From: Acidobacteriota bacterium
Lineage (GTDB): Bacteria > Acidobacteriota > Terriglobia > Acidiferrales > UBA7541
NCBI GenBank assembly: GCA_003223245.1
Contig: QHYI01000147.1
Coordinates: 44,841-101,003, forward strand
DNA length: 56,163 nt
Reading direction: 5' to 3'
The notes under the pieces are model-generated. The model was not told where the DNA came from and did not search any database. It saw nothing but the letters and a program-made list of their open reading frames with translations. Below are positions 29,437 through 51,700 of the stretch, one piece after another. The first letter of the stretch is position 1. Every line of letters begins with the position of its first letter. The translations under genes and the position numbers were made by a program.

Positions 29437-32400
29437 CTAGAAGGCCAGTCGCAATCCGAGGCGAATGACGCGGTGGCCGGAAGCACCCGGAGCCTGCATG
29501 AACGTGCTGCCTGATCCTCCGCATGGATTGCCCGTCGGACCTCCTCCCCAACAGTAATTAGACGCGCCCCATTCATCGGTCGTCCAGGTCCAAGTCGGAT
29601 GGTTCAGGAAGTTAAGCCCCTCCGCTCGGAACTGCATATCAAAGCGCTCTGTTAGCTTGAAATGCTTAAACAGGCCAAGATCCAGGTTGCTATGCCCTGG
29701 CCCATAGACGGCGATGTTGCGGCCTGTGTTGCCGAAGCGGTGTTGCCGCTGGATTCCATCCGGGTCGGTAACGAGAGGGACGGGCGCGAACGAACTCGGA
29801 TCGTACCAGTGACAGTTGTCTCCGGGCCCCAGGCAACCAAGCTTCTTGAGGGGCGCGACCAAATCGACAGTTTGATGGTTACCCGATGACCGAAATTGCG
29901 GATCCCCAAAGATGGTGGTGGGCGCGCCCGTGACCGTGCTCCAAACTCCATTAAGCTGCCATCCACCGAGGACCGCCCTTCCGATGGCATTGTGGCCGCT
30001 TAGCTTATGACCCGCCCCTACCGGTATCTCCCATACGTAGCCCATGCGGAAGATTTGGCGGCGGTCGATGTCAGCCATACCCCGGTTCTTGCTCAAATAG
30101 CTGGGCCCGGAGAAGAGCGGAGGCTGCCAAAAACCGCCGCTCCAAGCGTCCGTGTCATAAGCCTCGTTGATAGCTTTAGAATAGGTATACGCACCCTTGA
30201 GGTACAAACCCTTGCTGAAATTCCTGTCGAGCGTTACTTGCAGGGCGTTGTAGTGGGAATCTAGGAAGCCTTGGAGTTGATACGTGCCTCCCGTTCGCCC
30301 CCACAGAGTGCTCAAAGGCGCCTGCTGATCGATATCGGAAGCGTTGAGGTCCTTGATACCCCAGCCGTCGGTCTGGGAGTTGCCGACGTAGCCGACGCCG
30401 AGAAGCATATTCCCCGGCAGGCTCCGCTCCGCGGTAACGTTCCACGTCTCGATCCGGCCTCGTTTGAGTAATCCGGGGCCGATGAACCTCATTTCCACGT
30501 CGGTAGGAATGGGAATCGCTCCGGTACTGACATCCGGAATGGGAACCGGCGCGATGCCGCGTGAGAAAGTCCCCAACCCCTGAAAATCACACAGGACACT
30601 AGGTCCGTTGGCGCAGGCTGCTGCCGTGTCGAAAGTTGGGTCGGTGGAGTTATACTTCGTATCGGTCGAAATCGTGGCAGGATAGGCCCCTCGCGTCGCA
30701 CGCAGGATGGGGAACGTGTCGAAGGTGGTCCCGAAACCAGCGCGAAACACGGTCTTGTCGTTCCATTGGTAAGCTACTCCAACGCGCGGCTCAAGCATAT
30801 TCTTTTGTGTTCGAGTCCCGAGACTCTTCGGGTTGCCACCGAGCCCCCCGAGCAAAACGGTATTTGTTGCTGGATCGTACTGCTCCAAGCCTTTGCCAAG
30901 GGAGTCGCGTGTCATCAGTGGGAAATATTCATAGCGCGCTCCCAGATTGAGGGTTACCCTCTTACTGAGCTTCCAGTGATCCAGGATGTGGAACCCATAC
31001 CAGGTGTCTTTGCCGTTGGCTTTTTGGAACTGCACGGTCCGCCCCGCCTCGTCGTACACGCCAAGCAGGAAATTCGCAAATTGATTGTCCCGGAAGGCAA
31101 AAAACGGCGTATTTGGGTCTGTCAGGATAGGGTTTCCGGCGGCGTCGAGAAGATGCAGAGATGTATAATCACCGTTGTTGAAATTCATTCCGCCACGAGG
31201 TCCGAAGCCGTTTTCCGGCTGCCAGTGATTCAAATGGTTATGGACAATGTCCACACCAAAGCGAAGACTATGTGTGCCATGCGTCCAAGTGGCGTTTTGT
31301 GCGAGAGTCACGCTCCAGTCGTTGCGATACAAGGGCAACCAAGTGTACGAGCTGCCTAATTGGTCGAAACCGGCGATCGTGATTTCCGGGGTGCCGCTAT
31401 AACGCAAGTCGTTCGGGTCGTTCGTGCCAGGGATCTTCAAAAGGTCCAGCCCATTGTTCTTTCCAAAGTCGGGCGGCAAGCCAAGATGATCCATACGCGA
31501 GAAACCCAAGCTTCCGTCGAGAAGGAAGTGCGGACTGAGAGTCCAAGTGTGCCCCAAGCTAGCCGTGTGTACCGCCACATGCGTATTGCCATCGCTCCCG
31601 TCGGGGCACGGCCCGCCGATCACTGGACCATACCCGCAATGCACGGTCGTATTGGCATTCATTCGGCTGTACTTGACCCAAACGGAGTGCTTGTCGGTCC
31701 GGTTCCAGTCCACTCGAAAGTCGTAGTTGTTGCGGCGGAAGAGCTGCGGGGGGCTTAGGAAGTAGTTCCGCGTCGGGACCCCCTGCGAATCCAGACTCCC
31801 ACTGGTATTTGGCAAAGGCCACAAACCCATAATCGTTTGCGCCGTGGGATTAATGAGGTCGGAGGGCATGACGTTGAGATTTCCTCCGGCGGCATACACT
31901 GCGCGTCCCGTTCCATCCGGATTGCCTGTCAGCGGGTCGAAGACCATCCCTTGTTGTAATGGGACCATCATCCCCGTGAGGTTTCCGTGGCCGTCCGATG
32001 TTGGCACCATCACTGGGCCAATGGGATTCCCTTTGGCATCCACTTGGATAATCTGTTTCCCCAAATAAGCGCTGAAGTCTCCCTTGCGCATGTCGCTGGG
32101 GGGAACTGAATAGCGGTTATCCGTGGAGGGGTCAACAATCGATGTATGCTGAAAGACTCCGTCCCAGTTCACGAAGTAGAAGAGTTTCCCCTTCTTAATG
32201 GGTCCCCCCAAGTTACCACCTACGTCGTTTACGAGGTCCAATAGTTTGCTCTTTGGATGGCTGGGATCGAGTCCCTTGCAGATAAGGTCGAACGCATCGC
32301 AGGAATTCAAATGTTGGTCGTTGTGATACTCAAAAGCCACACCGTGGATCACGTTATTCCCCGACTTTGTGATCACGTCCACAGAGGCAGCGCCAGCCAT

Positions 32401-33129
32401 TCCTTTCTCGGGTTCAAAGCTATTCGTTGTGATTTTTACTTCCTGGATGGCTTCAATCGGCGGAACATACAGCGTTCCTCCTCCGGGCTTCCAGAGGAAA
32501 ATGCTTTGCGCGCCATCAATGCGCGTGGAGTTCGAGGATGGATCCAAGCCGTTCACAGGAATCGCAATGGCCCGCTCCGGTGTGTCCGCCGCCGCACCAG
32601 TAAAGCCATAGTCGCCAACGGCTCCGGGAGCAAGCAACAGGAGAGCCTGGAAATTCCGATAGAAGTTAGTGGGTAAGTTCTCCACCGCCACGGTGCCAAG
32701 TTCGGTGCTGACGTCCGTGTTCTCGGTCTTCAGCACTGTGGCAGCGGCCTCCACAGTCACGTGTTCCGCTGTGGGACCGACGCGCAACGTCGCGTCAGCG
32801 CGCGTAATCAGGCCGGCGTGAACGACAACTCCCGTTTGCTTGAATTCCCGGAAGCCCGAGGCCGTGATGACAATATCGTAAGTGCCATCGGGAAGGTTCG
32901 GCACTGTGTATTGACCTGCGGCGTTCGCGTCGACTTCGCGTTTCAAGCCTGTGAGCGGGTTGGTGACGGTTACATGAGCGTTGGCCAATGCCGCGCCGCT
33001 CTGGTCGGTCAAAGTGCCGTCGATTGAGCCGTACAGGACCTGAGCGGGAGCGGGCGAGGGTTGAATGGTGAGGCAAAACGAGAGCACCCAGGCAGCGAGT
33101 ACCACCAGACTGCTACTCCTGCGAGCCAT
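29437..33129 (-). CDS. TonB-dependent receptor, Oar-like, with carboxypeptidase-regulatory N-terminus
   Basis: 1230 residues from ATG 33129 with GAGGAAGG upstream; the longer frame to 33189 adds 20 residues ahead of the signal peptide. Signal: RRSSSLVVLAAWVLSFCLT ... APAQ (1-30). Residues ~32-115 are a CarboxypepD_reg domain (GTLTDQSGAALANAHVTVTN, PDGTYDIVITASGFREF). A plug domain with VENLPTNFYRNFQAL, VNGLDPSSNSTRIDG and EAIQEVKITTNSFEPEKG follows, then a ~900-residue beta barrel ending HRVIRLGLRLAF with the terminal Phe. It moves a large substrate, perhaps a glycan or peptide, through the outer membrane. A 280-bp AT-richer gap lies upstream. Partner of the TPR genes and CRTAC1. Confidence 0.92.
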   Translation of the reverse strand: MARRSSSLVVLAAWVLSFCLTIQPSPAPAQVLYGSIDGTLTDQSGAALANAHVTVTNPLTGLKREVDANAAGQYTVPNLPDGTYDIVITASGFREFKQTGVVVHAGLITRADATLRVGPTAEHVTVEAAATVLKTENTDVSTELGTVAVENLPTNFYRNFQALLLLAPGAVGDYGFTGAAADTPERAIAIPVNGLDPSSNSTRIDGAQSIFLWKPGGGTLYVPPIEAIQEVKITTNSFEPEKGMAGAASVDVITKSGNNVIHGVAFEYHNDQHLNSCDAFDLICKGLDPSHPKSKLLDLVNDVGGNLGGPIKKGKLFYFVNWDGVFQHTSIVDPSTDNRYSVPPSDMRKGDFSAYLGKQIIQVDAKGNPIGPVMVPTSDGHGNLTGMMVPLQQGMVFDPLTGNPDGTGRAVYAAGGNLNVMPSDLINPTAQTIMGLWPLPNTSGSLDSQGVPTRNYFLSPPQLFRRNNYDFRVDWNRTDKHSVWVKYSRMNANTTVHCGYGPVIGGPCPDGSDGNTHVAVHTASLGHTWTLSPHFLLDGSLGFSRMDHLGLPPDFGKNNGLDLLKIPGTNDPNDLRYSGTPEITIAGFDQLGSSYTWLPLYRNDWSVTLAQNATWTHGTHSLRFGVDIVHNHLNHWQPENGFGPRGGMNFNNGDYTSLHLLDAAGNPILTDPNTPFFAFRDNQFANFLLGVYDEAGRTVQFQKANGKDTWYGFHILDHWKLSKRVTLNLGARYEYFPLMTRDSLGKGLEQYDPATNTVLLGGLGGNPKSLGTRTQKNMLEPRVGVAYQWNDKTVFRAGFGTTFDTFPILRATRGAYPATISTDTKYNSTDPTFDTAAACANGPSVLCDFQGLGTFSRGIAPVPIPDVSTGAIPIPTDVEMRFIGPGLLKRGRIETWNVTAERSLPGNMLLGVGYVGNSQTDGWGIKDLNASDIDQQAPLSTLWGRTGGTYQLQGFLDSHYNALQVTLDRNFSKGLYLKGAYTYSKAINEAYDTDAWSGGFWQPPLFSGPSYLSKNRGMADIDRRQIFRMGYVWEIPVGAGHKLSGHNAIGRAVLGGWQLNGVWSTVTGAPTTIFGDPQFRSSGNHQTVDLVAPLKKLGCLGPGDNCHWYDPSSFAPVPLVTDPDGIQRQHRFGNTGRNIAVYGPGHSNLDLGLFKHFKLTERFDMQFRAEGLNFLNHPTWTWTTDEWGASNYCWGGGPTGNPCGGSGSTFMQAPGASGHRVIRLGLRLAF

Positions 33130-33470
33130 GATAAACCTTCCTCTCTGCTTCGCCCCAAAGCCGATTGATGTAACAAAAGGTGCCGTCAAGGCAGCTGAAC
33201 GTGACTGCAGATAAACCCACCCCCAGACCGGCGTAGGGGATTAATGCCCGTCACTGTCCCGCTTCTTGCTGGCCACAGGGCGAATAATACAAAAACACTA
33301 CCAATGATGATGCCCGTTATCATGAACGCGAGGAGATGTCAAGCATTTTATTATGCATTTTCATGCATTTTATTATTGAAGCGTTTAAATAACCCTTCGA
33401 CGGCCCTGCTCAGTGAGTGGAATAGAAATGCTCAGCTTACCGGCCAGGGGCGAAAATTAGGCCGAACTTT
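33130..33470. other. Interval upstream of the TonB receptor
   Basis: About 340 bp between the receptor start and the next TPR stop, AT-richer than its surroundings (for example 33340-33395). It should contain the receptor promoter, but I find no convincing -35/-10 pair. Palindrome-like ATGCATTTTCATGCAT at 33353-33369 is the only symmetric site (ATGCAT repeated). Confidence 0.4.
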
Positions 33471-40362: not shown

Positions 40363-41034
40363 GAACGTGCGCGCGCAATATCGAAGCGGTTGCATGCCAT
40401 GGGCTCTGAGCGGTATCGAGACGGATTCAAACCCACCCTGCATGATGACCTCATTGATCTCCCGAAGCGCTGGAAAAAATCGCGGCTCATTTTCGTAAAC
40501 TCGATGAGTGATCTTTTCCAGGACGCGGTGCCGGACGACTTCATCCGCCGCGTGTTTTCAACGATGGAGGCCTGTCCGCAGCACACTTTTCAGATTCTCA
40601 CGAAACGCAGCGAAAGGTTGCGGAAGATCGGAGCAAGTCTGCCGTGGCCGGGTAACGTCTGGATGGGGGTCAGTGTTGAAGACGCGCGGGTCATAGGGAG
40701 GATACCTGATCTAGCGGCGGTAGCCGCACGAGTGCGGTTTCTATCCTGCGAACCGCTCATTGGCCCCCTGGAGAATCTCCCTTTGAAGGGCATCCACTGG
40801 GTGATTGTCGGGGGCGAATCTGGACCAGGAGCGCGCCCCATGAATAAGCAATGGGTTGAATCAATCCACCGACAATGCCAATACGACAGCGTCCCCTTCT
40901 TTTTCAAACAGTGTGGTGGCGTGCGGAAGGATATGACTGGACGAAAACTGCACGGACGAACCTATGACGAGATGCCATGTCTGACAACAATTGAGCCCCC
41001 GCTGGATATGCGTCTTTCGCTCTGTGGAGCGTAA
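40363..41034 (+). pseudogene. DUF5131 (phage Gp37/Gp68-like) protein, N-terminus missing
   Basis: Open from 40363 (ERARAISKRLHAMGSERYRD) after a TAA at 40360-40362; the ORF's first standard start is TTG 40390. The body fits DUF5131: GFKPTLHDDLIDLPKRW, SRLIFVNSMSDLFQDAVPD, FSTMEACPQHTFQILTKR, HWVIVGGESGPGARPMN, FFFKQCGG. Complete proteins start with a Cys-rich CTxxSPGCxxCYA segment about 35 residues earlier that is missing here, so it is 5' truncated. The Cys segment is thought to bind a metal cluster. Third broken gene in a row here. Confidence 0.75.
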
Positions 41035-41280: not shown

Positions 41281-44200
41281 ATGCGGACGGGCATCCTGCG
41301 GGTGGTTTTGCTGTGTCTGTGTGCTTCCTCAGCTTCACTTCTTGGATACGGTGAAGGGCGCGCTGCTGCGCCGTCGGTCCACGCGAACGAGCCCGGCGCG
41401 CGTCTCGATCTGAAAGACGAGACTTCTGTCTTTTCCATCGACCTCTCAGCGAATGCTCCGCAAATTCTCTCCGCGACACTCTCGGTCAAGGTCATGGCGC
41501 CGGATGACAAGCTTCTCGCTGAAGCGTCTATTGCTGTGCGTCTCAGCTCAACTCCAACGCGAGCAGAGGTGCCGATCCGGTGGGTTCCTGACACTGGTCT
41601 CGATCACGTTTCGAGTTCCCGCCTTTTTTACGAAGTGCGGCTTGAAGGAGCATCCTCGGCGGCAGCTTCTGGAATCCTTTCGCCCTGTGCCCTGATCCCA
41701 GACCTTTTTGAGCTTCGCTTCATGGGACTGGATGCCATCGGTCTGGGACACAGCTACGTCGCTCGCGTCTGGGCCACGCGTCCAGATTCAGACAAGCCGG
41801 TGCAAGGAGTCTCGCTTACCGCCTTCATCGGTGATGACGAACAGGACACTCCGAAGGGCACGAAGGCTCGCGCGAGGACCAACGCGCGTGGACAAGCACA
41901 ATTGACGTTCCAGCTTCCCGAATTGGCAGGTGCGCGTGAAGACCAAGAAGTCGATCTCGAAATCCGAGGGACGAGGGGCTATTTCCATAATTCCCTGACT
42001 TCAACACTTCACTTTTGGCGCCGAGCGGCCATTCTGCTGTCTACGGACAAGCCTCTCTACCAGCCTGATCAAACCCTGCACATGCGTGCGTTAGTCCTCG
42101 ATGACCAGCGCCACGCCTGGGGCAAGCAGCCCGTCCGCTTCGCCGTCCACGGTCCCGATGCCACTGTCGTGTTTTCGGCTGATGCGCAAACTTCGCGCTT
42201 CGGAATTGCTTCCGTCGATTGGGGCATTCCCTCATCTCAAAAACTGGGCAATTACCGCGTGTCCGCCGATATCGCGGGCGACGCCGATAGCAGGGATTTG
42301 GAAGGAGGCCAATTCGTCCGCATAAGCCGCTATGAGCTTCCCACCTTCACCGTAAACGTCGTGACGGACAAGCCTTTCTATCTCCAAGGCCAGAATGCTG
42401 ATCTCACCGTCAGTGCCAGCTATATGTTTGGCAAGCCTGTTCTTCGAGGCCGCGTGCGGATTGTTCGTGAAACTTCGCGCCAGTGGAACTACAGCGATCA
42501 GAAATGGGAAACGGAACAAGGACAAGTGCAGGAAGGCGAACTAGATGCCAAGAATGAATTTCACGCAACCCTGGACCTTTCCAAGGACCATGCCGACTTA
42601 CGTGACACTGACTGGAAGCGCTTTGAGGACCTTCGATACGCGGCTTACGTGACCGATTCCTCGTCCCGGCGGACCCAGGAGCGCCATTTCGATGTACGCA
42701 TTTCCCGCGATGCGGTTCACCTTTATGTGCTGAACACCGGCGGAGTACTGCCGGTCGGCCTCCGGCCTGTGTTTTACATTTCGAGCTCTCTGGCAGACGG
42801 GACTCCCGCGACTGTCGACGTCCTCGTCAAGCTGTACACCCAGGATCCCGCCGGCGCTGGATCGTCAAAACCGGCGGCCCAGCCTTTTGCCACGGCACAG
42901 GTACGTACGAATCGATACGGCATCGCCCGAGTCCGTTCCTCCGAGCCGCTTCGAAATCAAAGGAACGACGAGAACAAACGTACCGACCGCATCTATGTCG
43001 CCCTGGAAGCAAAAAGCCCGGATGGGCGCACCGGTCGCCACCTCGAATCCTATTCGCTGCAGGAAGAACCAGCTCTGCGAATCACTCCCGTGAAGGCCAT
43101 TTTGAAACCGGGCGATCCAATCGAAGCTGAAGTCGAATCTTCGGTACCGCAAGTCCGCGTCGGCGTCGAAGTCATCCAAACTGAAACGCAAGCCATTCTC
43201 GCGTCCCAGGAACTCAAGCTCTCCCATACTTCGGGCCGCGTCACGTTTCCCGTGAATGAGCAATTCACAGGCAGACTCTTGCTTGCGGCCTATCCGCTCA
43301 ATGTCGAAGTCGAGCCGTACGCGATGTACTCACGCACCGCCAGTGCGTCCGTCGTTGTTCCAAAGCCGAGCAATCTTCAACTGGACGTTAAACCAGTCAG
43401 GACCACTTATCGCCCCGGCGAGGCGGCGACAGTGAACCTCAGCGTGCGTGACCCCGAAGGTGATCCCGTTGAAGGCGTCCTCGGTCTGTTGGTTTACGAT
43501 CAAGCGGTTGAAGAACTCGCCCGTACCGAGGCCAGCCTATTCACCGACGGGTACGAGCGGTTTGACCCTCGCCTTGGCTTTCGCTCTTTGGACGAAGAGA
43601 GCGACTCAATCGGAGGAGTCTCCGTTGGAAAACTCCTCAATCGCCAGCCGGATGCTGCCGTTCCTCAAGACCTCGAACTGGTGGCGGAAGCTTTGCTCTT
43701 CAGTCAGGGTGGCGCTCCCTTCCGCATGGAATCTTCGGATAACCCACGCTACCTCGACCAGGTTTTTCAAAAGCAGATTCACTCCGCACTCGATCCGGTT
43801 ACCAAACTTTTGCAAGAGCATTTCGCCGACACGGGCCATTTCCCGGCAGATGACGTGGAGTATGCAACCCTCCTTAGGGAAAAGGGAATCGATGCTTCCC
43901 ACCTCATGGATCCGTGGGGCCGCCCTTACCACGTTCGACGGACCTATGAATGGGTGAACGAAGTCCTCGAATTTCGCAGCGAGGGACCTGACAAGATTCT
44001 CAGCAGTTCCGACGATTTCACGGCGCTGAGCCTCTCTCGGCCATTTTTCGAGCATGAAGCGCAGCGCCTTCGCGGCATCGTTGATTCGTATCACGCCCGC
44101 ATGGGCAGCTACATCCGCGATCAGGCCACACTCGAAACAGCCTGTGCCCAAGAGCACACTTCACTTTCCACTTTCATCGATCCCTGGGGCACGCCCTATC

Positions 44201-46377
44201 ATTTTCTCTTCGAAGTCGTCCGCGAAAACTACACGATCAAAGTCGTGAGCGCCGGGCCGGACAGACGCTTTCGGTCAGGCTCCAACGATCCCACCGACGA
44301 TTGGGACGACTTGGTCGTGTCGGTTCAGAACATGCCCTATTTTGGCGAAATGGCTCAGCGAATTTCCGACGCGCTCTTCGAAAGTGCCAAGACTTCCGCT
44401 CATTTTCCCGAAACCGAGGAGGAATTCCGCAAAGGGATGGCGGATCACGGAATCGACTGGGATGCTCTTCGCGATCCTTGGGGTCGGCAATATCGCATCG
44501 TGCCGACAGTCGAAACAGGGTATAGCGACAAAATCGCGCTGCGCGCGTACGGGCAGAATATCAGCACATCTCAGACGCCGGTTTCCCGGACTGCGAAGGC
44601 GATCAGCATCGTCAGCGATGGCCCAGACCTCACGGCCAATACAGCCGACGATTTTGTTTTGGCTAAATTCGCCTCGCCGTTCTTAGAGGAGTCTGGCGGC
44701 ACTACTGGCAAAACTGTGGTCCCGCAAAAGCCGCAGCCCATTTACAGCGGCAATTCCGGCGCCGTGCGTGTTCTTATACAGGACCAATCTGGCGCAGTCA
44801 TTTCCAACGCTAAAATCACTCTTACCAATGAGGCGACCGGTGTCGCGTATGACGGGACGGCGGACGATCAGGGCGTTTGCTTGCTCTCTAATCTTCCTCC
44901 TGGCACCTATCGCCTTCTTGCGGAGAGCGCAGGGTTTCAATCATATGTTCTAACTGCTATTCCAGTGCTTTCCAGCAATGCGACGGATGTCCAAGTCACG
45001 CTCCGAGTTGGAGCTGTGACGCAGACGGTCGAAGTTGCAGCGGAAAATGTCAGACTCCAAACCTCGGCATCTCAGGTCGCAGCGCTTGCGCCCGGATTGA
45101 CGTTAACCACGAAATCCGGCGCCGGTTCCGGCCAAATCAAGATGCCCATTGCCACGCCGCGCTTGCGCGAGTATTTCCCGGAAACGCTCCTGTGGCAGCC
45201 GGAAATTCTTACCGGGAGGGCTGGTCATGCAACCGTAAAAGTTCCTCTCGCCGACAGCATCACCACCTGGAAGGTCTCCGTCATTGCATCCACGCTGGAT
45301 GGACATGTTGCCACGGCTTCCGCGGACCTACGCGCCTTCCTGCCGTTTTTCGTCGAACTCGAACCGCCCAAAGTTCTCACCGTAGGAGACGAACTCCATT
45401 TGCCCGTCACAGTTCGCAATTACCTCGACAAGCCGCAAGACGTTTCTCTCGACTGGGCCGCAGAGCCGTGGTCTGAAGTTCTCTCCCAGCATACAGCTCA
45501 CATCAACGTCGCCGCCGGAGATTACGCTGAGGAAACGTTCTCCTTCCGCGCTGCACGTCCCATGAAAGAGGCCAAGCAGCGTCTCACTGCGTTCAACCGC
45601 TCCTCAGCAAATGACAGCGACGCCATCGAAAAGAAGCTCCGCATCCACGCTGACGGCCAGCAACGGCTTGTTCAAGCGAGCTCAATTTTCATCGGCGACA
45701 CTTCACTGTCGGTGGAAATCCCTGAAGGCGCTCTTCCTGGCTCAGTGGAAGCCGAATTCGTCCTTTACCCAAACCTGGTTGCTCATGTCAGCGACGCCAT
45801 CGAGGGCATCATGGAGCGGCCCTACGGCTGCGCGGAGCAAACGATCTCTTCCGCCTACCCGAGCCTTCTCTGGCTACAGCTTCAAAAGTCTCGGCAGCTC
45901 CCGGTTTCTTCGCTGGATGCACGGGCGCGCCACTATCTCAATCTGGCTTACGCGAAGCTGCTCCGCTACCGTGAACCGAGTGGCGGATTCTCGCTCTGGG
46001 GCAAGGGCCAGCCCGAACTCTCGGTTTCTGCATACGCACTTCGTTTCCTCACGGAAGCTTCCGAATTCATTGAAGTGGATTCCGACGTGGTCGCAGCCGC
46101 CCGTCGCTGGTTGCTCCAGCAAACCGCACCGCAGGGCGGTTGGATGGAAAAAGACTCGAACGGCAAATACTTGGAAGGCTCCGGGCTATACCTCACCGCC
46201 TACGTAGTCGAAGCACTCGCCCGCGATCTGCAACGTCGCAAGCCTGACGAAAAAGATATCGATGCGGAACGCCAGGGCGTACGAAATGGCATCGCATATT
46301 TTTCCAAACACTTTCGTGCCACTTCCGACCCTTACGACATCGCTCTCATCGCACTCGCTAACCCACATTATTCGTGA
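41281..46377 (+). pseudogene. Alpha-2-macroglobulin family protein, 5' part (interrupted by transposon)
   Basis: 1698 residues from ATG 41281, with signal peptide (RVVLLCLCASSASLLGYG). Macroglobulin domains start near residue 60; MG2-like LLSTDKPLYQPDQTLHMRAL is near 255. Residues ~835-1100 hold three pseudopilin (GspG)-like repeats ending DPWGRPYH, DPWGTPYH and DPWGRQYR at about 877, 967 and 1064. A CarboxypepD_reg domain (VRVLIQDQSGAVISNAKITL, LPPGTYRLLAESAGFQSY) spans ~1160-1260. Next come the bait-proximal LLWQPEILTGRAGHATVK and the thioester domain with YGCAEQ (Cys1517, Gln1520). The frame stops inside the thioester domain where IS1380 enters; the rest is at 50723-51700. It would trap proteases in the periplasm. 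Confidence 0.9.
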
Positions 46378-46562
46378 AAACTGACTTCGCGATCGATTTT
46401 TTGTTGTTCTTCTTCACTTCAAGACGGCAGTTGACAAGGGTGAGAATTTTGTTGAATCGCGAGTTGATTCTAAAGCGCTTAGGCGGACAGAAGACAAGAA
46501 ATGGAGACACCTCAAGTAGCACGCAACAAGTCAAAAGTTCCTAGCGCGGGGTAAGGAGGAAG

Positions 46563-47142
46563 CTACCCACTTCGCGCGCCCAAGCTCAAGGCCAGACGAT
46601 GAAAGTTATTGAGATAAGGAAAGGACTGAGGTAAGTGCAGCACGATCCGACGTACTGAAGTCACCACCCGAGCTCCGATTTTCAGAAAACGCTCTCGCAA
46701 GATGGAGACCTGTGCCCGGGCGGAAGCTGTGCCAGCCAAACCTAAGCGCATCTCTTGCATCAACACGTAGGCCGCAGCAGTCATCGACACGCGGAACTGG
46801 TTGGCCCAGAATTTTGTGCAACTGGTGCGGCCGATCTCCATTCCATAGTGCAGTTCCTTTATTCGATTCTCGATGTCACCTCGTTGACAGTAGACCTCCT
46901 CGTAGAGCCATCGCGGACTCTGCTTCATGTTGGTCACCACGAAGCGCGGATTGTCTTTGGGTTTCTTACCCTCCGCCCGCACCACCTCGGCTTTATAAAT
47001 GACGCGACGTTTCCACGGCCAGGTCTTGCGCGTGCGGTACTGACACTCGCCGTAAACATGCTCGGTTTGCTGCGAGCTCTCCGAAGCACGACGGGCCCGT
47101 TGCATGGCCGACTCCGCTTTTCGCTCCAACACCGCATTGGAG
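46563..47142 (-). pseudogene. IS1380 transposase, C-terminal part
   Basis: After the break this part begins NAVLERKAESAMQRARRAS and continues TEHVYGECQYRTRKTWPWKR, VIYKAEVVRAEGKKPKDNPR, QRGDIENRIKELHYGMEIGR (with the last catalytic Glu), FWANQFRVSMTAAAYVLMQE and ends SLGARSG. It completes the N-terminal part at 49831-50639. The joint SN/NAVLERK is intact when the inner element is removed, so the transposase was whole until the second insertion. Confidence 0.85.
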
Positions 47143-47164
47143 CCCATCACATAATGCATACGTT

Positions 47165-47632
47165 CTGGAGACCGTCACGGTTCGCTATCGTTGGCATCCG
47201 CTCTTTGGACAGGCTCTTCGTGTTGTGAAGCGGGAGAGGGACCGACACGGACACGGGGAATATCTATTCTGTGAATTACCGGATCGCACATCACGTTCTC
47301 TTCCCGCTTGGATGTTCAGCTCCGAATGCACCGCATTTTCCGTGGGTCCACCCGCCATCGCCATTGAGGCGCTCAGCGACCTCCGCGATCTCCTAAGCAG
47401 CTTGCAAAAATCCAGCCCCTGCGATAAAGCTTCAGCCACATCGCCGCTATCGCAGGAGGAAAAGCGTGAAATCGCATCCGAAGTCCGTCCGTTCGCAACT
47501 CAATCTCGCGTTGCTCGATCGCAGGCCGACCGAACTTCCGTCGCACGAACAACACGAACTCGCCCTCGCTCTGGTCGAGCTGCTCATCAACGCCGCCGCT
47601 CCCGGCACGCCCGGAGGAGGAGGTCCGAATGA
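47165..47632 (+). CDS. DUF5372-like protein
   Basis: The frame gives ETVTVRYRWHPLFGQALRVV, KRERDRHGHGEYLFCEL, PAWMFSSECTAFSVGPPAI and EALSDLRDLL, the pattern of DUF5372 proteins that stand upstream of serine recombinases in many elements. A TAA at 47153 limits the 5' end and no ATG or GTG precedes the motif; CTG 47165 would be the start, otherwise GTG 47225. The tail after ~110 residues overlaps the next gene in another frame. TGA at 47630 overlaps the recombinase ATG. Function unknown; perhaps an accessory of recombination. Confidence 0.55.
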   Translation: METVTVRYRWHPLFGQALRVVKRERDRHGHGEYLFCELPDRTSRSLPAWMFSSECTAFSVGPPAIAIEALSDLRDLLSSLQKSSPCDKASATSPLSQEEKREIASEVRPFATQSRVARSQADRTSVARTTRTRPRSGRAAHQRRRSRHARRRRSE

Positions 47633-47651
47633 ATCCGAAACTCACGAATGA
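47466..47651 (+). CDS. Small accessory protein of the recombinase element
   Basis: 61 residues from GTG 47466 with AGGAGGA 6 nt upstream, the best ribosome site of the element. Sequence SQLNLALLDRRPTELPSHEQ, HELALALVELLINAAA is one amphipathic helix plus a Gly-rich tail. I recall short proteins of this kind (ending ALADLLLNAA) directly before such recombinases. It overlaps the recombinase start by 23 nt. Role unknown. Confidence 0.6.
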   Translation: MKSHPKSVRSQLNLALLDRRPTELPSHEQHELALALVELLINAAAPGTPGGGGPNESETHE

Positions 47652-49749
47652 ACGGTTGAAACGGAGGGCGATCGTCTACCTTCGGCAGTCTTCCCCCGAA
47701 CAAGTGTTTCACAACCAAGAGAGTCAACGACGGCAATATGGTTTGGCCGACCAAGCACGCGACCTCGGTTTTCGCGACGTCCTGGTGATCGACGAGGACT
47801 TGGGACGCACGGGGTCCGGATTGGTGGAGCGCCGAGGATTTCAGCGCCTGGTTGCGGAAGTCTGCACCGGTGAGGTCGGTGCCGTATTTTGCATCGAGGC
47901 TTCGCGATTGGCGCGGAACGGCCGTGACTGGCACCATCTGATCTGGATGTGCGGCCTGGTGGGCGCGGTGTTGGTGGATTTCGATGGAGTCTACGATCCG
48001 AATCTGGTGAATGATCGGTTGCTCTTGGGCATGAAAGGAGAGATGGCAGCGTTTGAACTGAGCCTGCTGCGGCAGAGATCGCTCGAAGCCATCCGCCAAA
48101 AGGCCCGGCGGGGCGAACTGCAGTTTTATCTTCCCGTGGGCTTCTGCTGGAGCGAGAACGGCAAGATGGAGATGGCCCCGGATCGTCGGATCCAAGACAG
48201 CATTGATCTGGTATTCAACAAGTTCACTGAGCTCGGCAGTGTCCGGCAAGTGACGTTGTGGTTCCGCCGTGAGAAGATCGCTTTGCCGGCTATTCCTTCA
48301 GGGCGAGGCGAGCGCCGTCTGGGGTGGAAGCTGCCCCTGTATCACACCATCTGGGCGATACTGACGAATCCTCTGTACGCGGGAGCGTATGCGTTCGGCA
48401 AGACGGAAGCGCGAATGCAGATCGTGGAAGGGCGGGCACACAGGACCAGAGGGCATTGCAAACCACGCGCCGAATGGATGGTGTTGATTCGCGATCATCA
48501 TCCCGGGTACATTTCCTGGGAGCAATACGAGAAGAATCAAGCGATGATTGCGGCCAACGCGCACATGAAATCACACATGGAGCCAAAGGCGGCGCGGGGA
48601 GGACGCGCCCTGCTCGCCGGGTTGTTGCGATGTCGGCGGTGCGGTCGGATGCTGCGCGTGGAATACAGAAGCCTCCATATACAAGGACGCTACTGCTGCC
48701 GCGATGCACAAGCGAATGCGCGTGAGGATTGTCGGTGTATTTCTTTCGGGAGTTGGCGGCCAGACGAGGCGGTCGCAAAGGAGGTGCTCGAAGCCATCGG
48801 AGGCAACGCCGTCGAGGCGGCGTTGCAAGCGGCCGAGCAGATGAGGCAGCAGCAAGAAGCACGCCAGCGCGCGTCCGAGATGGAGCTGGAGCAGGCTCAC
48901 TACGAAGCCCGACTGGCGGAGCGGCGCTACGAAGCGGTCGATCCGGAGCAACGGTTAGTCGCCGCAGAGCTGGAAGCTCGCTGGAATGCGGCTTTGCAGA
49001 AGGTACGAGATTTGGAGAAGAAGCTGCAGACACTCGGGAGCGACCCACAGGCGGTTTCGATTCCGTCCAGAGAAGTGCTGTTGAGCCTGGCGCAGGATCT
49101 TCCGGCCGTGTGGAATGCTCCCTCGACGGACATGCGCTTGAAGCAGCGGATTGTGCGGATTTTGATCCGCGAGATTGTCGCGGACATAGACAAGGAGAAA
49201 CAGGAGATTGTCCTACTCTTGCACTGGGCCGGAGGTCGTCATTCGGAGTTGCGGATCAAGAAGAACGCTATCGGCCGGCATCGTAATTGCACGAAGCCGG
49301 AGGCGGTGGAAGTGGTGCGACAAATGGCGGGTCAGTTCAGCGACGAGCAGATCGCTTCCACTCTGAATCGTTTAGGGATGCGAACCGGTGCGGGCAATGG
49401 CTGGAGCGAAGTGAAGGTGCGCGCGCTGCGGAACTACCATCAACTGCCCGCCTACGATGCGAGTCGTGTCACGGCGGACAGTCTCACGCTCGAGCAAGCT
49501 GCCGGACGGTTGGGAGTGAGTGTCACCGCGGTGCGGCACTTGATTCAGCGTAAAACCATTCCAGCCACGCAAGTGGTGCCAGGAGCACCGTGGCAGATTC
49601 CGGTCGCGACCGTGGAAGCTCCGAATGTCCGGCGAGCCGTGATGGATATCAAGAGTCGCCGTCATCCACGCGGAGCTCAGTTTCGCGACGAGCGCACGCT
49701 GGAGTTGATGGGGTTCTCTGAGCCGGAGGCGCCAGCTGTGGAATCTTGA
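47629..49749 (+). CDS. Large serine recombinase
   Basis: 706 residues. The resolvase domain begins RRAIVYLRQSSPEQV with the nucleophilic Ser at 21 or 22; further catalytic arginines in DRLLLGMKGEMAAFELSLLR and EASRLARN. A recombinase domain follows (VGFCWSENGKMEMAPDRRIQ, FTELGSVRQVTLWF), then a zinc ribbon with LLRCRRCGRML...YCCRDAQ...CRC, a Glu/Arg-rich coiled coil, and near the C-terminus a small HTH (LTLEQAAGRLGVSVTAVRHL) not typical of all family members. It catalyses site-specific integration and excision. Intact, so the element may be mobile. Confidence 0.93.
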   Translation: MNPKLTNERLKRRAIVYLRQSSPEQVFHNQESQRRQYGLADQARDLGFRDVLVIDEDLGRTGSGLVERRGFQRLVAEVCTGEVGAVFCIEASRLARNGRDWHHLIWMCGLVGAVLVDFDGVYDPNLVNDRLLLGMKGEMAAFELSLLRQRSLEAIRQKARRGELQFYLPVGFCWSENGKMEMAPDRRIQDSIDLVFNKFTELGSVRQVTLWFRREKIALPAIPSGRGERRLGWKLPLYHTIWAILTNPLYAGAYAFGKTEARMQIVEGRAHRTRGHCKPRAEWMVLIRDHHPGYISWEQYEKNQAMIAANAHMKSHMEPKAARGGRALLAGLLRCRRCGRMLRVEYRSLHIQGRYCCRDAQANAREDCRCISFGSWRPDEAVAKEVLEAIGGNAVEAALQAAEQMRQQQEARQRASEMELEQAHYEARLAERRYEAVDPEQRLVAAELEARWNAALQKVRDLEKKLQTLGSDPQAVSIPSREVLLSLAQDLPAVWNAPSTDMRLKQRIVRILIREIVADIDKEKQEIVLLLHWAGGRHSELRIKKNAIGRHRNCTKPEAVEVVRQMAGQFSDEQIASTLNRLGMRTGAGNGWSEVKVRALRNYHQLPAYDASRVTADSLTLEQAAGRLGVSVTAVRHLIQRKTIPATQVVPGAPWQIPVATVEAPNVRRAVMDIKSRRHPRGAQFRDERTLELMGFSEPEAPAVES

Positions 49750-49830
49750 CGCCCGCAAACTGAGATTTGATTTCCGATTTTCTAATATTTTCAAACACTT
49801 AGCGAGGTGCAGCAGAATGTCACAGGATCG

Positions 49831-50639
49831 TTGGACGCGAAATTGACGAGGTATTCCACTTTCGGCTCGCAATCCAGAAAATACAAAACTTCCGGAGCCG
49901 CGAAGCCACCATCCAAACGCACCCGGATCTTGGCTTTCGGAAAAGCTTCCGTCAGCCGCTCGATCAGACGGCGCAGGATGCCCACGGCTCCTGCCGAGCC
50001 GGGGGCGTTCCCCGGACGCAACACCGCGGTGACCAGATACTGCTCGGCCTCTTGGTCAAAAGTCACGAACCCCACCATCGGCAGGTAGCAGTAGCTATCA
50101 TAGTGCCAATTAAAAAAGCTCATTTGTTGAGCACCATATGTGGGATCGTCAGTTGGATCCAGATCTATAGTGATCAGACGGGCGCGACCCTTCAGTCGTT
50201 TACGATGTCGTTCGATCACCGTGTCGGCCAATGCTTCGGCCATACGAAACAACTCTTTACGACCCACACCATTTTCAAAACGCGAGAGGGTCGGCTGCGA
50301 GGCCAAATCTTCTCCTTCCACGGGATCACGACCGACCAATAGTTTGTGCACCGGGTCGGAAGCCAGCTTTGCGGCATCGTTGGCATCTGCGTAGCCGCAG
50401 GCGATGGCCATGATGCGCTGCGTGAGGAGCTCCTCGAGTTCGTGGTCGACCTTGACCGCCTGCCGCTCGTCTTTGAGACAAGCCGCCAACGCAGCCGTTA
50501 GACCTAACCCTCGGTCCGCGGCTTTGAGTAACACCGCACCCCCATCGGAACTGCCTTGCGATTGATCGAACTTGGCGACTACCGAGCGATCAAAAATTTC
50601 TGGGAACAGTAAACACTGTGTTGTGGTATGTTCGTTCAT
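49831..50639 (-). pseudogene. IS1380 transposase, N-terminal part
   Basis: From ATG 50639 (MNEHTTTQCLLFPEIFDRSV): DQSQGSSDGGAVLLKAADR, LEELLTQRIMAIACGYADAN, LITIDLDPTDDPTYGAQQMS (first catalytic Asp), YCYLPMVGFVTFDQEAEQYL, KIRVRLDGGFAAPEVLYFL (second Asp) and PKVEYLVNFASN at the break. After 49831 the frame runs into the inner element and stops at 49791. With 46563-47142 it makes a ~460-residue IS1380 transposase. Confidence 0.85.
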
Positions 50640-50722
50640 CGAAAGCCTCTGGATTGGTCTCAAAACCGCGTCGACAACGGCTTTTTACCATGAAAGAGGC
50701 TTTTCGTGTCTCAAAAACATGA

Positions 50723-51700
50723 ATTATTCAGGCTAAGCTCGCCGCCCGCGATGATGCCTCGCAGGAAATCCGCACTCTCCTATCGCTGGAGCGCACCGAG
50801 GGCGAAACCAGCTATTGGGACCTGCACCACAACACAATCTTCTACGGCTGGGGCTACACAGGCAGGATTGAAACCACGGCTCTCGTCCTTGACGCACTTG
50901 CCATCGCCAGGCAACAGAGCCCTTCCTCAGCGGAACTTGACCGCGCTCTGAGCCGCGGCACGCTCTTTCTCTTGAAGAACAAGGACCAATACGGAGTCTG
51001 GTATTCGACGCAGGCGACGGTCGATGTCTTGCAAACACTGATTCGGCAATTGGAAGCTGGCTCGCCTGATGCGTCGCGCGTGCCCCTGCGCATCTTCGTC
51101 GATGGAAAGCCCGGCCCCGCTCTCTCCTCGTCGTCAGATGCCCGCCAGCTCACGCCACAACGCGCCGACCTCACGCCATTCCTATCGCCAGGGAAGCACA
51201 CTATTGAGCTTCGGAGCGGCACGTCAGCCCACGCCAGTGCTTACGTCAACGCTAGCTATTACTTGCCTTGGACCGACCCCACCGTTATCGGCTCCTCCGT
51301 TCCGAGCGGCGACGCAGAGTCCTTGCGTTACTCGGTCAAGTTCGATCGCTCTGCGGCTTCCGTCGGTGATTTGATTCAATGCACCGTTCATGCCGAGCGC
51401 GTCGGTTTCCGCGGATACGGAATGATGTTGGCTGAGGTGGGCTTGCCTCCGGGTGCCGATGTGGACCGCGCTTCTCTCAACTCTGCGGTCTCCAGTTCTG
51501 GTTGGGACCTGCAGAGCTACGAAGTTCAACCGGATCGCGCGGTCTTTTACCTTTGGCCGCGAGCCGGAGGCACGACATTCTCCTTTACGTTCAAGCCTCG
51601 ATTTGCAATGACGGCACAGTCATCGGAATCCGTTCTCTACGATTACTACAACCCCGAAGCGCGGGCCTCGTTGCCGCCGGCGCGTTTTGTCGTCAAGTGA
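50723..51700 (+). pseudogene. Alpha-2-macroglobulin family protein, 3' part
   Basis: Continues the thioester domain: QAKLAARDDASQEIRTLL, ETSYWDLHHNTIFYGWGYT, RIETTALVLDALAIARQ, GVWYSTQATVDVLQTLIRQL, then the receptor-binding-like C-terminus (SVGDLIQCTVHAERVGFRG, VFYLWPRAGGTTFSFTFKP) ending PPARFVVK. About 325 residues. It starts right after a TGA at 50720. Collapsing the ATTATTC repeat puts it one base out of frame with the 5' part, so a second change in this gene or a different breakpoint must be assumed. The continuous product would be about 2,020 residues. Confidence 0.85.

Follow-up and report, generated by a model that had tools for sequence, protein, structure and literature searches.

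An acidobacterial alpha-2-macroglobulin with a bait region apparently rebuilt from pseudopilin-like units and a TonB receptor-like domain

Results

The stretch of DNA analysed here (the window) comprises 56,163 nucleotides of contig QHYI01000147.1 (positions 44,841 to 101,003 of the forward strand, assembly GCA_003223245.1) from an Acidobacteriota bacterium of the class Terriglobia, and contains the N-terminal part of an alpha-2-macroglobulin (A2M) gene (41281-46361, residues 1-1693) within the open reading frame (ORF) at 41281-46377. Coordinates are window positions and features lie on the forward strand unless stated otherwise. The start of the protein resembled a signal peptide by eye. MG, BRD, A2M and thioester domains were all present in the family order by Pfam, namely MG2 (residues 252-334, 42034-42282, 79.9 bits), MG3 (351-433, 42331-42579, 38.1 bits), A2M_BRD, the part preceding the bait (599-745, 43075-43515, 34.5 bits), the alpha'NT plug (from 1291) with the Pfam A2M domain (1302-1390), together at 45151-45450 (64.5 bits) and aligning with human A2M from residue 702, and the first part of the thioester domain (1502-1693, 45784-46359; TED_complement 87.2 bits, profile positions 14-206 of 312). 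The YGCAEQ thioester motif of the initial annotation was read in the sequence, with CAEQ (Cys1517-Gln1520) encoded at 45829-45840. The best PDB profile matches of the core were CD109, A2ML1 and A2M (E from 4.7e-69 for CD109 to 4e-60), with E. coli YfhM much weaker at E about 6e-24.

Approximately 545 residues separated A2M_BRD from alpha'NT, in the bait position inside MG6, and held three repeated units, then a CarboxypepD_reg domain and then a linker. The same interval was about 86 residues in an alignment with human CD109, whose part before the bait aligned weakly. That the units replace or extend the bait region had been proposed from the sequence alone, and their placement between A2M_BRD and the conserved alpha'NT/A2M segment agrees with this. 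Our overall reading, which takes in the mechanism proposed in the Discussion and to which we assign a probability of roughly 0.6, is that the ORF encodes a secreted thioester-type A2M whose bait region has been rebuilt as a string of folded domains.

The three pseudopilin-like units were located at residues 825-920 (unit 1, 43753-44040), 919-1018 (unit 2, 44035-44334) and 1016-1129 (unit 3, 44326-44667, with a longer loop). Their DPWG motifs lie at residues 877, 967 and 1065; the first two positions had been annotated correctly and the third had been placed at 1064. A one-unit hidden Markov model (HMM), built from 19 one-unit A2Ms with no three-unit protein among them, detected all three units in the window protein, at 34.0 bits for unit 1, 29.4 bits for unit 2 and 16.5 (1016-1092) plus 10.7 bits (1077-1129) for unit 3, and 200 shuffles peaked at 4.1 bits. 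Applied to 39 proteins with at least three units (E < 1e-3), the same model found at least three in 20, two in 17 and one in 2. Pfam T2SSG matched the window protein at 24.6 bits, over the cut-off of 21, and the part that matched best, 929-996, lies in unit 2. Of 22 units taken from seven proteins, 19 had a T2SSG match at E up to 1; the best reached 4e-5 and most scored under the curated cut-off. A profile of these 22 units searched against the PDB returned solved GspG structures first (1t92 at E 1e-4, 3g20, 29jd, 5wda and 2kep).

Structure prediction was consistent with these matches. The model of unit 2 (104 residues, 37 alignment rows) had a predicted local distance difference test score (pLDDT) of 83.6 and a predicted template modelling score (pTM) of 0.75. 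When Foldseek candidates were compared again with VIA, the first 13 of the 40 listed rows were all pilins or pseudopilins, the first unrelated row had Z 4.1, and the best match was PulG 1t92 (Z 6.4, 86 residues, 3.1 Å). In a larger model of residues 590-1400 the units were predicted at pLDDT mostly 80-92, CarboxypepD_reg at about 74-86 and the stretch 1245-1305 mostly at 22-25. The GspG-type identity claimed for the three units was thus upheld by the T2SSG match, the PDB profile matches and the one-unit HMM, and their predicted folds appear pseudopilin-like.

The units also led to genes of the pseudopilin type outside the A2M family. Another phylum, which the record title of L049 gives as Hydrogenedentota, was searched with a 37-unit profile, and 59 of the 68 genomes searched had a match; the ten best places were in ORFs of 1077-1690 aa, among which the gene of L049 alone was examined, and short ORFs ranked below. 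All ten inspected short-ORF loci found by the unit profile (L184-L193) had a prepilin motif. No prepilin leader motif was found in the window protein or in any of 64 unit-bearing A2M ORFs, so the units are domain homologues rather than GspG proteins. With sequence and structural evidence combined, we regard homology of the units to the GspG C-terminal domain as settled. A recent origin by capture of a GspG gene of the same organism was rejected because no donor was seen in its genome, which had no PF08334 match and no TIGR01710 match over cut-off. GspG over the TIGR01710 cut-off occurred in 10 of 28 unit-bearing genomes of the class and in 119 of 371 others, and this similar frequency with and without units indicates that the units do not go together with a type II secretion system.

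In the available text of PMC3396595, aspartates 3 and 11 of the PERCAL motif bind calcium in GspG 3g20. The strict motif was present 22 times in 76 A2M ORFs, with 21 of these inside units and 0.005 expected from shuffles, and it occurred in just 21 of 142 units. Judged from these loop sequences, calcium probably stiffens the units.

The CarboxypepD_reg (transthyretin-like) domain that follows the units (1162-1242, 44764-45006) scored 59.5 bits with Pfam and had a structural match at Z 13.5, and its likeness to TonB receptors, also claimed initially, was borne out by blastp alignment. The blastp set consisted of the CarboxypepD_reg-plus-linker segments of seven relatives picked by eye and of the window protein against 14 proteins, with E-values valid for that tiny set and with the window ORF at 29437-33189 alone confirmed by Pfam as a TonB-type receptor. 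In the seven relatives the alignment was with the start of long own-genome ORFs that have CarboxypepD_reg as well, and it extended beyond the domain. For example, residues 10-181 of 188 (172 residues) of L161 aligned at 36% identity, and residues 12-148 of 152 of L164 aligned at 40% with the window ORF 29437-33189. In the window protein the receptor match covered 4-113 of 134 residues (110) at 35% and ended before alpha'NT, which leaves the last part of its block unaccounted for. Since domain and linker align with the receptor start in several relatives, the two were probably captured together from the N-terminal end of a TonB-dependent receptor. A pattern for the plug motif gave a weak signal when used by itself, with hits in 8 of 57 linkers and in 2 of the 13 own-genome ORFs that have CarboxypepD_reg, and no beta-barrel family was found in the Pfam scan of the window A2M protein. 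The A2M protein had 74 matches in its own genome, most of them to CarboxypepD_reg; the ORFs concerned were mostly 1000-1400 aa long and amount to a large receptor-like set.

The linker between CarboxypepD_reg and alpha'NT (1243-1290, 45007-45150; pLDDT 22-25) is most likely the cleavable bait. Linkers were the least conserved segments, with mean identities of 20-31% relative to 35-42% for the units and 37% for A2M_BRD; the linker between unit 3 and CarboxypepD_reg was likewise variable (20-26%). The rate of nonsynonymous substitution (dN) of the linker before alpha'NT was 0.35 for the window and L026 and 0.68 for L030 and L031, the highest of the segments compared in both pairs, and it was highest in 12 of 15 comparisons of a further set, which includes L030-L031 again and has some rows in two pairs. 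The ratio of dN to synonymous substitution (dN/dS) of the units was 0.05-0.19 in one of the two pairs (window-L026 and L030-L031) and 0.09-0.16 in the other, indicating purifying selection. The alpha'NT residues TPRLREYFPE were conserved in these proteins. MG6 matches of the whole-region model spanned both halves, yet at root-mean-square deviations of 8-15 Å, and the model therefore gives no support for MG6 closing round the insert.

The three-unit model was matched in 28 of 399 genomes of the class, representing 18 of 136 genera (E <= 1e-5), while the A2M core model was matched in 115 of the 399 (E <= 1e-10). Across a sample of the phylum, 41 of 297 genomes matched the units (E <= 1e-3), about half of them in short ORFs, and 21 genomes had a matching ORF of at least 1134 aa; 20 such stretches were retrieved and all 21 ORFs in them carried A2M domains and units. 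Among 12 strong loci (L035-L046), L037 was titled Betaproteobacteria and L044 Actinomycetota; L037 shares coordinates and length with G006, which is assigned to the window's genus, and the contig name of L044 says Acidobacteria. The initial annotation had treated the insertion as unusual; it proved to be common in the phylum, yet no description of a bait with pseudopilin or TonB receptor pieces in a bacterial A2M was found in the openly licensed PMC literature.

The architectures formed a ladder among 66 near-complete ORFs, which were chosen partly for units, so that the counts are not frequencies. Three units with CarboxypepD_reg were present in 34, one unit with CarboxypepD_reg in 12, no units in 10, one unit alone in 7, two units with CarboxypepD_reg in 2 and four with CarboxypepD_reg in 1. 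L110 was counted as one unit alone despite a weak CarboxypepD_reg match, its label being set by hand for the tree. The interval from BRD to MG7 was 52-59 residues in unit-free forms (one outlier of 136), 202-240 with one unit alone (377 in L110), 316-372 with one unit and CarboxypepD_reg, 391 and 515 with two units, 486-595 with three and 632 with four. In the four-unit version (L029 / L039) the additional unit lies near the first. One-unit forms lacking CarboxypepD_reg came from records titled Armatimonadetes, Hydrogenedentota and Deltaproteobacteria (L048-L050) and also from Acidobacteriota (L170-L172). Three unit-bearing A2M genes lay in a row at G445:C112 (L157, L158, L159) and two, overlapping or adjacent, at G405:C23 (L168).

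On a quick tree of 70 rows from MG7 to the thioester domain, ten unit-free forms fell on one side of a branch (support 100), 19 one-unit forms made up one group (99) and the other 41 rows, with two to four units or partial, formed another (99). Nine architecture changes were counted on this tree, relative to a minimum of six and 32 in shuffles. As far as the sequences indicate, unit number (none to four) largely follows the core tree and the design is phylum-wide. All 70 thioester-domain rows retained the C-x-E-Q motif; the idea that the one-unit clade had lost its thioester was rejected, as sequences there read GCFEQ.

The window copy of the gene is broken. The reading frame enters foreign DNA after residue 1693, inside the thioester domain, at a 4370-bp mobile insertion (46362-50731) that is itself nested and was delimited by profile matches and by the empty site in G030, a relative assigned to the same genus in which the site is uninterrupted with 99.8% nucleotide identity on both sides. 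Comparison with G030 also placed the two copies of a presumed target duplication, GCTAA, at 46357-46361 and 50732-50736. Two fragments of a DDE_Tnp_1_4 transposase were found on the reverse strand, at 46563-47159 (profile positions 246-428 of 435) and 49791-50663 (2-252 of 435), and a serine recombinase gene (Resolvase, Recombinase and zinc ribbon) lies between these halves at 47629-49749 on the forward strand. From these profile matches the insertion reads as one DDE_Tnp_1_4 transposase gene, of a family that we take to be IS1380-like, split by a serine recombinase element. The insertion had no match in a plasmid collection and its first 1267 bases occurred a single time in the genome. The C-terminal part of the A2M gene (50732-51700), with the rest of the thioester domain and A2M_recep (E 3.8e-8), was 99.8% identical to intact G030 DNA. 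The receptor-binding domain thus lies beyond the insertion in the window, cut off from the frame of the N-terminal part, and is in a single frame in intact relatives. With the gene interrupted in this way, the window copy should yield no working trap.

The A2M gene proper was 99.6-99.9% identical between the window and G030. Upstream of 41198, from 83 bases before the A2M start codon, the window had no counterpart in the G030 contig (L032 3313-6937), and the promoter region may have been replaced in the window relative to G030. An in-frame stretch of 54 bases (window 42185-42238) was missing from G030, whose gene was split over two contig ends (L032, L033) that have 3 bases in common (window 44560-44562); damage is possible in this copy as well. 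Elsewhere, a three-unit A2M (L090) had its A2M domain interrupted by a single TAG stop, and the genome of the window carried a degenerate second A2M N-terminal piece (L002 1501-1872; G000:C221:132457-132828), 44% identical and with two in-frame TGA stops. A gene for a DUF5131 protein lies directly upstream of the A2M gene in the window (40390-41034). No conserved neighbour was found among 10 neighbour genes tested in six loci.

Discussion

In the accessible text of PMC9352918, the alpha'NT segment after the bait of this family threads a channel between MG2 and MG3, and cutting of the bait is followed by retraction of the segment and collapse of the molecule. Given this family mechanism and the conserved alpha'NT, we read the linker as the element that triggers collapse, with the units forming a folded arm. 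A protease would cut the linker that directly precedes alpha'NT and is flexible and usually fast-evolving; alpha'NT would slip from the MG2-MG3 channel and the molecule would collapse, after which the exposed CAEQ thioester would bind the protease covalently by analogy with other family members. The role that we infer for the units is that of an arm between MG6 and the trigger, which would hold the bait out, limit which proteases reach it and add bulk beside the captured protease.

The protein shares MG2, MG3, BRD, alpha'NT, MG7, the CxEQ thioester domain and the receptor-binding domain with CD109, A2ML1 and human A2M, whereas its bait interval is far longer and holds foreign folded domains. 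The type I bacterial A2M of E. coli and Salmonella (YfhM) is likewise bacterial and secreted with a CxEQ thioester, but it was the much weaker profile match, and no lipobox pattern was seen within 45 residues of the N-terminus. A PBP1c gene next door is a mark of the type I form, and the 10 neighbour ORFs tested in six loci of intact relatives included no PBP gene. Complement C3 also has a folded domain, the anaphylatoxin, that follows the first part of MG6 and precedes alpha'NT, although the domains of the acidobacterial A2M are different ones and occur three to four times over. The C-terminal domain with DPWG and a calcium loop is shared with the major pseudopilin GspG (PulG, EpsG, XcpT), but here as tandem copies inside another protein and without a prepilin leader. 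CarboxypepD_reg and the following segment align with the N-terminus of TonB-dependent receptors up to the plug start, in a protein that had no beta-barrel match.

Several observations weigh against our overall reading. In addition to the break in the window copy, the native form of human A2M was destabilised, and less of it was present, when the bait was made longer, according to the part of PMC9352918 that was available. The low-confidence stretch 1245-1305 spans alpha'NT as well as the linker, the model of residues 590-1400 was poor overall (pTM 0.40), and the linker was not the fastest segment in three of the 15 comparisons (L093-L097, L163-L164 and L155-L042). Unit 1 alone scored 13.2 bits against T2SSG, under the cut-off, Foldseek with the unit 2 model gave a best E of 1.4 and thus nothing at E <= 0.001, and the Z values from the structural comparison of that unit stayed below 8, which is not strong alone. 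Strict PERCAL was found by eye in none of the three units of the window, and the relaxed calcium pattern with the aspartates, present in 120 of 142 units, was counted without a shuffle control.

Bait regions vary freely, and the insert could be a product of drift in which a tolerant bait accumulated captured domains without a function of their own. The patchy distribution in the class sample and the several broken copies (the window and L090) fit this account. We nevertheless consider it unlikely, as the units are as conserved as A2M_BRD (mean identities 39-42% and 37%) and under purifying selection, and the three-unit plan recurs in about half of the near-complete ORFs, albeit in a sample chosen partly for units.

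In another reading the units would form a calcium-dependent module by which the trap binds to a surface, to a partner or to proteases of one class. The GspG-type calcium loop is kept in many units, and PERCAL peptides are described in the available portion of PMC3396595 as binding calcium and are linked there to root-surface binding in another protein. With no partner or surface known and no conserved neighbour among those tested, such docking is a doubtful explanation.

Very unlikely, in our view, is a release as for the complement C3 anaphylatoxin, in which cuts on both sides would free the units as a signal or effector. Folded domains do occupy the C3a position between two linkers, of which that between unit 3 and CarboxypepD_reg is variable too, but no receptor or downstream system is known and ordinary trapping needs one cut. 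We hold just as little expectation that the bait is an integrated decoy, mimicking proteins of the cell envelope, in which case enzymes directed at the secretion or uptake machinery would trip the trap. Both captured pieces do stem from envelope machines, the pseudopilus and the TonB receptor, yet GspG was no commoner in unit-bearing genomes and was absent over cut-off from that of the window. The wider picture of a complement-like trap with envelope-mosaic decoys against the enzymes of predators, phages and competitors, with decoy number tuned by lineage, is similarly improbable. Finally, a chance resemblance to pseudopilins, suggested by weak single-unit Pfam scores and the empty Foldseek result, was rejected as next to impossible on the PDB profile search, the structural comparison, the one-unit HMM with its shuffles and the retrieval of prepilin-motif genes.

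Conclusions

The available text of a recent review (PMC12939704) puts the size of the bait region domain at about 66-126 residues and describes it as smaller in bacteria than in eukaryotes. The A2Ms described here represent a phylum-wide bacterial lineage with bait intervals of 486-595 residues made of folded domains. Should a trap of this kind work, a bait would not have to be a short loop and protease specificity could evolve by the swapping of whole domains. Placing a domain where the bait lies, the principle seen in C3, would then have arisen in bacteria too.

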